From: Candidatus Sulfidibacterium hydrothermale
GTDB lineage: Bacteria > Bacteroidota > Bacteroidia > Bacteroidales > F082
Length of the DNA: 64,000 nucleotides
Assembly: GCF_020149915.1 (NCBI RefSeq)
Contig: NZ_CP083760.1
Coordinates: 682,001 to 746,000 of the forward strand
Direction: 5' to 3'
The position numbers were made by a program, and so were the translations under genes. Positions within the stretch are counted from its first letter, which is position 1; every line of letters begins with the position of its first letter. Below, one piece after another: positions 45,306-47,572 of the stretch. The notes below the pieces were generated by a model, which saw nothing but the letters and a program-made list of their open reading frames with translations, ran no database searches and had not been told where the DNA came from.

Positions 45306-45534
45306 ACCGTAAAAATAGGAATTAATCGGTTTTTAAATAGCGGATTTTTACCTTTCTACTTAAAAAAATGAAAAGAAATTCTGGTTGGTTTTGTTTTGAT
45401 TAAGGAAGAAATTCTACTGGTATTTTGAATACTTATCGGATCTTCCTCTTTCGCAAAATTCCCCATCTGAACCGTCCTTTTCACAAATTAAGACAAATTG
45501 GCTATGGGAAAGGATAAATGTTGAATGGGAAAAA

Positions 45535-45566
45535 GTCATTGGTAAAATTGGTCATTAGTCACTGGT
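45535..45566. repeat. Three GTCAYTRGT units
   Basis: GTCATTGGT (45535-45543), GTCATTAGT (45551-45559) and GTCACTGGT (45558-45566). Simple tandem-like repeat. Confidence 0.55.
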
Positions 45567-45600
45567 TTACTGGTTGATCCCAGTAGTTAATATGTTTTGC

Positions 45601-45689
45601 TGTCATCCAGAACGGAGCGCAGCGCAGTGAAGGATCTCAAAAAAACTGGCAGTAGTTAAAATAGATTCTTCGCTACGCTCAGAAGGACA
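45601..45689. repeat. Imperfect inverted repeat, MITE-like (CGGAGCGCAGCG / CGCTACGCTC)
   Basis: The left arm from TGTCATCC to GGATCT and right arm from AGATTCTT to AGAAGGACA are imperfect reverse complements, with about 25 bases between. The arms match the look of interspersed palindromic elements common in bacterial intergenic DNA. It is non-coding. Confidence 0.65.
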
Positions 45690-45788
45690 AAAAGGCTGAT
45701 TGTTAATATTTTATTTGTTTTTGTCATTTGCTTTTTTGTTTTTTGGGGGTTCGTTTGCGATTTGTTTTTTTGGTTTTTGGAATTTCCC

Positions 45789-45855
45789 ACTTTAGGCACT
45801 TCAAACTTTAGGCACTTGAAGTACTTAAAATGTGAAGTGTGAAGTACTTAAAATG
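45789..45855. repeat. Two pairs of short direct repeats
   Basis: ACTTTAGGCACTT at 45789-45801 and 45805-45817; GAAGTACTTAAAATG at 45818-45832 and 45841-45855. Confidence 0.8.
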
Positions 45856-45892
45856 AGTAGAATCCACAATTGTGTTCATAACTAATCCCAAA

Positions 45893-46030
45893 GGGATTAA
45901 ACGTAAATACCCCTGTACGAAGTGCAGGGAAATAAATCCATCAGAAAATCATAACCCCGAAGGGGTTGAACACTGGGCTCTGAATAAATTCAGCGTCAAT
46001 GGTAATAAGTCGTCCCTACAGGACTCCAAG
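45893..46030. repeat. Chain of small palindromes (AATCCCAAAGGGATT type)
   Basis: AATCCCAAAGGGATT, CCCCTGTACGAAGTGCAGGG and AACCCCGAAGGGGTT are hairpin units spaced by about 35-50 bases, followed by TCCCTACAGGA. The pattern resembles interspersed CCC-GGG palindromes of Bacteroidota intergenic regions. Confidence 0.6.
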
Positions 46031-46068
46031 TATCATACCGATGTTTATTCTGTTTTTCTTTGGGAGTT

Positions 46069-47541
46069 TTATTGTTGCACTTTCATGGAATTTTCAATGA
46101 GCGAGTAGGTAAGCGGGATTTTTACCTTTAGCCGGGTGAGCAATGCCGGTGAGAGATTTCTTTTGGAAAACGGAACCCGTTTTACATATTGTTGAATCTG
46201 CCCGGCTTTTCGTCCGTATTTGTAAGCATAGGTAAAATTCAGGCTGTCGGCAAGTTTGATGTTCGGATTATCCAGGTTGGGAACGCTGATAAAAAACCGG
46301 CTGTCTGACAGTTTTCCGTTGTTAAAAAGATGCTGTTTGTTCAGATAAACGTACAATTCTTTGGCGGTGTTTACGGCCGGATCGATAAGTGCGACCTTTT
46401 TTTTCATAAAACGGCGATAAACATATTGGCCGTTTTCTTTGTAATTGTAAGCATAGTGCAGCACTTTCCGGAAATTATCCATATAAAACGGATAATGGGT
46501 ACATCCGAGAATAATGGCACTTAACCGGGTGGATGTTCCTGATTTTCTGATTTTTTCGAGCAGGGAAATAACATGATACCGGATGTAATTGTCCACGGTA
46601 TTCAGCTGGATCTCTTTTGGATTGTCGGGTGTTCCGGTGAACAATACATGATTTCCGGAAAAATCGAAATGATACCGCTGCAGAATGGATTTGTCAATAG
46701 GGGCAATTTTATTGGAAAAAGAGGGGCCGCGGTAGTTTTTTCTAACGGAAGTAAGTGATGGATCAAGATAATCTTTTTCGCCGTCGATGGCGGCAGCAAG
46801 CCCTACGCCGGCTTGTTGAAATGAGGTGATCTTTCCGGTATAGCCCCATTTCTTTTTCTGCTCTTCCACCGTATTGGGATAGCCGTGTGATGCTACTGTT
46901 CCGGCAGTGGCCATGATGCCGATCACGGCATTGCTGTCTTTGGGAATATCTTCCAGAGCGCCCCGCACACCTGCTCCAATCACACCAATGACTTTTAACG
47001 GCAATCCGGCACGTTTTAAAAACTGTTCAATCTTTTTTTTGCCGTAAGCCGTGGCCGTATTACAAGCAATGACAATGGCTTTTACAGGAGGCTTGTCAGT
47101 CCGGTAATTTTTGGCGGTTTGTGACGGATAATATTTGTTGCCCAGCATAAACTGCATGTCTTTCATCACATGTTCCTGTAATAATTTGGTTTTATGATTT
47201 CCGGGATATTCGCCGTAAGGCATATTGGCTTTGTCGCCGAGATAAATAAATGATTCGGAAGAAAAGTCAATTTTGCCGTCTTTTCCTTTTTTATGGGTGC
47301 TGTTGTTAAAGTGGTCTGACCGCAGGATGGCATCCAAAACGGTGAGTCCGCCGGTACCGGAATCAAAAATTCCTACAGGCAGTTTGGCATCGTGCCGCGG
47401 GTAGGTTTTAAAGTTGATGTAAAAGAAACTCCCCGGATCGTTTAAAATAACCTCCTCAATATTGGTGTATTTGGGTTGGGGTTGATGACATCCGGCAAGA
47501 AATGCACCAACAAAAACGGTGATGAACAGAAATTTTTTCAT
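46069..47541 (-). CDS. Lipoprotein with complete glutamate-racemase motifs
   Basis: 490 residues. The lipoprotein signal ends at Cys18 (AFLAGC), then a MurI-like fold follows: VGIFDSGTGGLTVLD with Asp60-Ser61, YLGDKANMPYG with Asp103, IACNTATAYG with Cys160 and LGCTHYPFY with Cys347 and His349. These are the substrate-binding and two catalytic cysteines of glutamate and aspartate racemases. MurI is about 260 residues and cytoplasmic; here the chain is nearly doubled, with inserts near 78-98, 130-155 and 255-335, and a C-terminal extension of about 130 residues. It is therefore an exported, membrane-anchored relative. Activity is unproven. It has its own -7 box. Confidence 0.88.
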   Translation of the reverse strand: MKKFLFITVFVGAFLAGCHQPQPKYTNIEEVILNDPGSFFYINFKTYPRHDAKLPVGIFDSGTGGLTVLDAILRSDHFNNSTHKKGKDGKIDFSSESFIYLGDKANMPYGEYPGNHKTKLLQEHVMKDMQFMLGNKYYPSQTAKNYRTDKPPVKAIVIACNTATAYGKKKIEQFLKRAGLPLKVIGVIGAGVRGALEDIPKDSNAVIGIMATAGTVASHGYPNTVEEQKKKWGYTGKITSFQQAGVGLAAAIDGEKDYLDPSLTSVRKNYRGPSFSNKIAPIDKSILQRYHFDFSGNHVLFTGTPDNPKEIQLNTVDNYIRYHVISLLEKIRKSGTSTRLSAIILGCTHYPFYMDNFRKVLHYAYNYKENGQYVYRRFMKKKVALIDPAVNTAKELYVYLNKQHLFNNGKLSDSRFFISVPNLDNPNIKLADSLNFTYAYKYGRKAGQIQQYVKRVPFSKRNLSPALLTRLKVKIPLTYSLIENSMKVQQ

Positions 47542-47564: not shown

Positions 47565-47572
47565 CAAATGTA
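47565..47572 (-). promoter_or_regulatory. -7 box of the racemase-like gene (TACATTTG)
   Basis: Exact TAnnTTTG match on the minus strand, 24 bases before the start codon. Confidence 0.6.

Follow-up and report, generated by a model that had tools for sequence, protein, structure and literature searches.

A MurI-like lipoprotein in Candidatus Sulfidibacterium hydrothermale: a predicted exported member of the glutamate racemase family with a possible role in D-glutamate salvage

Glutamate racemase (MurI) is the textbook cytoplasmic source of the D-glutamate (D-Glu) of the cell wall. A stretch of 64,000 nucleotides of the Candidatus Sulfidibacterium hydrothermale genome (contig NZ_CP083760.1, positions 682,001 to 746,000, hereafter the window) contains a gene encoding a relative of this enzyme which begins with a lipoprotein signal, raising the question of what such a protein may do outside the cytoplasm. 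Judging by sequence, the evidence strongly supports the view that this MurI-like lipoprotein represents a genuine and conserved branch of the glutamate racemases that is exported. The best-supported reading of its function, to which about even odds are given (a probability of roughly 0.5), is a salvage function: the protein would be a periplasm-facing, cofactor-independent glutamate racemase, converting wall-derived D-Glu to L-glutamate (L-Glu) for uptake. The export and lipidation signal, the intact catalytic apparatus, their conservation, the separateness of the protein from MurI and its gene neighbourhood in relatives can all be read in the sequences.

The gene is an open reading frame (ORF) starting with ATG on the minus strand, at 46069-47541, and encodes the 490 residues of the original prediction; the plus strand of the same interval is interrupted by stops in the same register. 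The N-terminus, MKKFLFITVFVGAFLAGC, is a predicted lipoprotein signal, with the lipobox LAGC and Cys18. The lipobox cysteine and the racemase motifs DSGTGG, GDxxxxPYG, ACNTA with Cys160 and GCTHYP with Cys347 and His349 were all found where they had been predicted, and the protein contains only three cysteines (18, 160 and 347). The features of the coding region are the following:

46069-47541, minus strand: ORF of the MurI-like lipoprotein, 490 residues, stop codon included; based on the ORF call, the TIGR00067 match and the hhalign alignment to canonical MurI
47488-47541, minus strand: predicted lipoprotein signal, MKKFLFITVFVGAFLAG-C18, codons 1-18, the Cys18 codon being at 47488-47490; a lipobox-type Cys is found in 17/17 homologues
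47347-47364, minus strand: DSGTGG, residues 60-65; D60-G64 invariant in 17 homologues, Asp60/Ser61 aligned with Asp7/Ser8 of 1b73
47212-47238, minus strand: GDKANMPYG, residues 102-110, where PYG is the MurI substrate-loop motif; A105-G110 invariant in 17 homologues
47053-47067, minus strand: ACNTA, residues 159-163; Cys160 aligned with the catalytic Cys70 of 1b73
46489-46506, minus strand: GCTHYP, residues 346-351; Cys347/His349 aligned with Cys178/His180 of 1b73
46072-46284, minus strand: C-terminal extension, residues 420-490, with no MurI counterpart; the hhalign alignment stops at 419, and KYGR and PF motifs are conserved

The relation to glutamate racemases was evaluated at several levels. 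The NCBIfam model TIGR00067 (glutamate racemase) matches the protein with 92 bits (E 3.7e-26), under its curated cut-off of 146.65 bits, and all of the 23 chains matched by sequence in the PDB are glutamate racemases. The score for the Asp/Glu/hydantoin racemase superfamily of Pfam, PF01177, was 23.3 bits (E 6.1e-05) and did not reach the gathering score of 31; homology to the superfamily over the core is nevertheless found by hhalign, where a profile of 17 family members compared with a profile of 8 canonical MurI gave a probability of 99.9% (E 2e-33) over 230 columns. Neither Pfam nor NCBIfam gave a match, at E up to 1, to families dependent on pyridoxal phosphate (PLP), of the alanine racemase type. 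The profile comparison also showed at least four inserts relative to MurI, rather than the three originally proposed, while the predicted C-terminal extension was confirmed, as about 71 residues follow the last MurI-aligned residue (419).

In MurI, two cysteines remove and donate the alpha proton (PMC8142540). Judged by its residues, the MurI-like lipoprotein would work like MurI, and Cys160 and Cys347 would exchange the alpha proton within a cofactor-independent racemase domain. Compared with MurI/RacE (TIGR00067; PDB 1b73, 1zuw, 3hfr), the core, the two catalytic cysteines, Asp/Ser, PYG, Asn-Thr and His are shared, whereas the lipobox and hence predicted export, the length of about 490 versus about 260 residues, the inserts and the C-terminal extension are not. 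Members of the MurI equivalog are cytoplasmic proteins of about 260 residues supplying D-Glu to the wall; the MurI-like lipoprotein has their active-site residue set, but neither their score nor that location and role, and for these reasons should not be filed as MurI.

Relatives were gathered from genome contigs and whole genomes, and 17 distinct members of full length, sharing 43 to 76% identity with the window protein and spanning Bacteroidales and Ignavibacteriales-type genomes, were aligned. All of them display, by pattern, the features of a bacterial lipoprotein, namely a short basic N-terminus, a hydrophobic stretch and a lipobox-type cysteine close to the start. A search for homologues carrying both the lipobox and the two catalytic cysteines had been suggested with the original prediction; the three residues occur in 17/17, no other cysteine is shared by the whole set, and they provide strong sequence support for the predicted exported, lipid-anchored relative of glutamate racemase. 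Also invariant are Asp60, Ser61, PYG, the Asn-Thr following Cys160, Thr212, Thr215 and the Thr-His following Cys347, where Thr212 and Thr215 occupy the MurI substrate-threonine positions. The lipoproteins cluster together, with a bootstrap of 85 and a Shimodaira-Hasegawa-like approximate likelihood ratio test (SH-aLRT) value of 96, in a tree that also included canonical MurI and a third group, of 300 residues.

Such a pattern bears on whether the protein is an enzyme at all. Binding proteins are common among lipoproteins of about this length, and a pair of nearby thiols might become oxidised once a protein is exported; a non-catalytic binding or sensing protein might therefore be built on the MurI fold, with the two cysteines joined in a periplasmic disulfide. 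This is regarded as very unlikely, because full conservation extends beyond the cysteines to the whole MurI active-site set, across 17 sequences with identities as low as 43%, which indicates catalysis.

The third group of MurI-like proteins, of about 300 residues, lacks a signal and carries DSGxGG, ACNTLS and CCTHYG (L093:5057-5980; L094:6003-6929); it is found in the same Ignavibacteriales-type genomes as canonical MurI and the MurI-like lipoprotein.

Whether the protein could serve as the MurI of the cell was evaluated from the genes for D-Glu supply. The ordinary cytoplasmic murI, for which a check had been proposed, was not found: the genome of the window (one contig, 3.27 Mb) has no TIGR00067 match besides the MurI-like lipoprotein, and in the family of the window none of 173 genomes has a MurI over the cut-off. 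In the same genome, a second MurD-like gene is adjoined by one for a full-length relative of MurL, which scores 265 bits (E 8e-79) with NF041275, a model whose cut-off of 700 was set for xanthomonads; MurL relatives were detected in 13/13 genomes tested of the family. The second MurD has, by alignment reading, Glu and Arg at the positions of Asp182 and Lys348 of E. coli MurD, the two residues which mark MurD2 in published work (PMC8788868), while the MurD of the dcw cluster has Asp and Lys (motif reading). The location of the pair is:

L047:9799-12454, corresponding to C1:2169798-2172453 of the own genome: MurL relative and second MurD with MurD2-type residues

Since a MurL relative and a MurD2-type ligase are present and MurI is lacking, the wall D-Glu of this organism probably comes from MurD2 and MurL. 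The MurD2/MurL route, known from Xanthomonas, likewise involves the inversion of a Glu residue destined for the wall, but is not related to the MurI-like lipoprotein. A review lists it only in some Gamma- and Alphaproteobacteria and in actinobacteria (PMC8788868), and no report of it in Bacteroidota was found in the open-licence literature searched.

In nine Ignavibacteriales-type genome handles carrying the MurI-like lipoprotein, canonical MurI over the cut-off is present in 9/9; the nine correspond to at least seven distinct places of origin, and two are the same contig. As the lipoprotein is found with MurI in some genomes and with MurL in its own family, its presence is independent of the D-Glu route. 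An exception is G445, where neither MurI nor MurL exceeds the threshold. In its family, 12/41 genomes lack an over-cut-off MurI match, and an aminotransferase of G445, with 136 bits to a D-amino-acid aminotransferase model (below cut-off), is a likely alternative source of D-Glu.

These data weigh on the idea that the protein is the MurI of the cell, retaining its N-terminal segment uncleaved and supplying D-Glu to the wall from within the cytoplasm. The lack of another TIGR00067 match and the canonical-looking MurD kept in the dcw cluster would fit, but the lipobox is present in every homologue, the lipoprotein gene is missing from most genomes of this MurI-less family, the MurD2/MurL pair is available, and Ignavibacteriales-type carriers have a separate MurI. 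The idea is considered extremely improbable, and the MurI-like lipoprotein was rejected as the cell's own MurI. The absence of MurI from this genome is a family-wide trait explained by the MurD2/MurL pathway, and not by the lipoprotein.

Evidence for a salvage function comes from the gene neighbourhood. Neighbouring ORFs around the MurI-like lipoprotein genes were clustered and then annotated. In seven genomes from three Ignavibacteriales-type genera (L007, L008, L009, L085, L086, L087, L088) an AmpG-family gene of the major facilitator superfamily (MFS) precedes on the same strand; the L007 protein matches TIGR00901 with 175 bits, under the cut-off of 350. A BadF-type kinase gene, nearest to NagK and so resembling an N-acetylglucosamine (GlcNAc) kinase, is located upstream of the AmpG-family gene in all seven but L086. 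A fusion of GH3 and PF00144 domains, of about 960 residues, is part of the run in L086, L087, L088 and L091, and has a hydrophobic, signal-like N-terminus in the first three; for L091, an eighth genome, what is visible of the run is limited to its end, with the fusion and racemase genes. Such a pairing, of a GH3 NagZ and an amidase of the PF00144 fold, is reminiscent of NagZ/AmiE in Bacillus. In G445 (L084, another Bacteroidia genome) genes for a PF00144 hydrolase, the MurI-like lipoprotein and an amidohydrolase are joined by 4-bp overlaps, and each product has a predicted export signal; the best model for the amidohydrolase is PRK09061, presumably a D-glutamate deacylase. In G153 (L049:7722-11948) the lipoprotein gene follows, on the same strand, genes for an exported Asparaginase_2 and a GDPD protein, and is adjoined by a convergent gene for a lipoprotein of the Peptidase_C26 type. 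Adjacency to muropeptide transport or hydrolysis genes on one strand is seen in the three Ignavibacteriales-type genera and in G445, and not in the window.

Known salvage systems offer partial parallels. RmNag3, an exported GH3/beta-lactamase-domain protein argued to be periplasmic (PMC6987092), has the same architecture as the GH3-PF00144 fusion, and the salvage cluster of Tannerella forsythia is murT-ampG-murK-murQ (PMC7670621). An AmpG-family transporter, a sugar kinase and an exported NagZ-type fusion also neighbour the MurI-like lipoprotein in relatives, but the word racemase is absent from both papers.

The salvage reading rests on these neighbours in relatives and on the logic of transport. 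When external D-Glu is low, D-Glu auxotrophs of E. coli and Vibrio fischeri can live on it only with an altered GltS (PMC12502697); because D-Glu-requiring strains had to alter this transporter, conversion to L-Glu before uptake would help. Peptidoglycan would be taken apart outside the cytoplasm, in relatives by the NagZ/amidase-type and other exported hydrolases, freeing D-Glu; the MurI-like lipoprotein, lipidated at Cys18 and probably facing the periplasm, would convert it to L-Glu, which ordinary glutamate transporters would then import. Lipidation, membrane side, enzyme activity, substrate and direction are what we infer from signal, residues and neighbours. As to the side of the membrane, the residues following Cys18 (HQPQP) are unlike what we take to be the Bacteroidetes surface-export signal, and the periplasmic side is for this reason weakly preferred over the surface.

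Several observations weigh against such a function. In the window and the closest relatives the lipoprotein gene is outside a salvage operon, so that the predicted action on D-Glu of peptidoglycan fragments is supported by neighbourhood in the three Ignavibacteriales-type genera (AmpG-family, GlcNAc-kinase-like and often NagZ/amidase-type fusion genes) but not at the locus itself. Near the gene, the window and its close relatives encode a POT-type peptide transporter and a rhomboid protein, to which the window adds a GluP-type sugar transporter (MFS), and three further carriers (G525, G242, G304) have no salvage genes adjoining. The MurI catalytic Glu is without a certain counterpart, the invariant Asp253 being the likeliest by hand alignment, and an AlphaFold2 model built with six homologues (mean predicted local distance difference test score, pLDDT, 49; predicted template modelling score, pTM, 0.49) was too poor and was not used. 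AmpG was not found in the genome of the window, and an AmpG-dependent pathway was accordingly rejected for this organism. In favour of salvage, on the other hand, two large GH3-PF00144-type (NagZ/amidase-type) fusions, each one open frame of more than 1000 residues, are located elsewhere in the same genome:

C1:265884-268820 and C1:1915516-1918407 (L099-L102): two GH3-PF00144-type fusions of the own genome

The POT-type peptide transporter near the gene in the genus of the window, together with the inserts and C-terminal extension, which could form a larger pocket around the MurI core, leads to an alternative, in which the substrate would be the D-Glu residue within a small wall peptide, such as L-Ala-D-Glu or a stem peptide, and epimerisation would enable ordinary L-specific peptidases and peptide transporters to act. 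A precedent for the D-to-L direction on a peptide derivative is fungal OpaE, of the Asp/Glu racemase family (PMC12661438), but OpaE comes from the allantoin-hydantoin branch, and every residue which holds free glutamate in MurI is kept in the lipoprotein; we regard such an epimerase as unlikely. A broader proposal, that a MurI-derived enzyme inverts D-Glu inside extracytoplasmic wall peptides or muropeptides, changing stem peptides in place for uptake or protection as part of a mobile salvage module, appears distinctly unlikely.

Racemisation could also proceed the other way. BsrV, BsrF and RacK are PLP-dependent and unrelated in sequence to the MurI-like lipoprotein, whereas the latter matches only the cofactor-independent family; the likeness would be in amino acid racemisation outside the cytoplasm, linked to the wall. 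Periplasmic amino acid racemases described so far are of this broad-spectrum kind (PMC12502697), and no periplasmic, secreted, extracellular or lipoprotein glutamate racemase of the MurI type was found in the open-licence literature searched. By analogy with their wall editing, the lipoprotein might work in reverse or on another acidic amino acid, producing extracytoplasmic D-Glu or D-Asp that would serve to edit the wall or be released. MurI-type enzymes are reversible, and the exported Asparaginase_2 neighbour in L049 could hint at Asp. The commonest neighbours are nevertheless degradation and uptake genes, and known wall editing employs D-amino acids other than Glu, which makes this direction doubtful and quite improbable.

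Returning to the proposed salvage of D-Glu, the MurI-like lipoprotein would be an accessory, horizontally moving trait, apart from the supply of D-Glu for wall synthesis. Its distribution is patchy: it was found in 8/395 genomes of a phylum-wide draw and in 11/79 genomes of the family with Ignavibacteriales/Melioribacteraceae records. Within the genus of the window, the G149 copy is distant while those of other genomes are close to the Ignavibacteriales-type ones, which suggests horizontal movement of the gene. Viral contigs were searched for further homologues and yielded none of the lipoprotein family and one distant MurI.

The surroundings of the gene show two additional features. A candidate promoter element, read from sequence and useful as a lead only, precedes the ATG by 23 bp, and resembles what we take to be the Bacteroidetes -7 element, TAnnTTTG:

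47565-47572, minus strand: TACATTTG, promoter lead

On the other side, the spacer between the lipoprotein gene and the GluP-type transporter gene (45306-46068, 763 bp) contains no gene of 100 residues and is rich in short repeats, e.g. AAGTACTTCA and AAGTGCCTAAAGT.

The finding matters for annotation, since the best NCBIfam name for the protein is glutamate racemase, below cut-off, and murI searches in a MurI-less family would wrongly pick the MurI-like lipoprotein. If the salvage reading is true, certain bacteria reverse the D-configuration outside the cell, so that a wall amino acid which is hard to transport becomes ordinary L-Glu, and the D-Glu-handling step of salvage would be supplied for bacteria which dismantle peptidoglycan in the periplasm.
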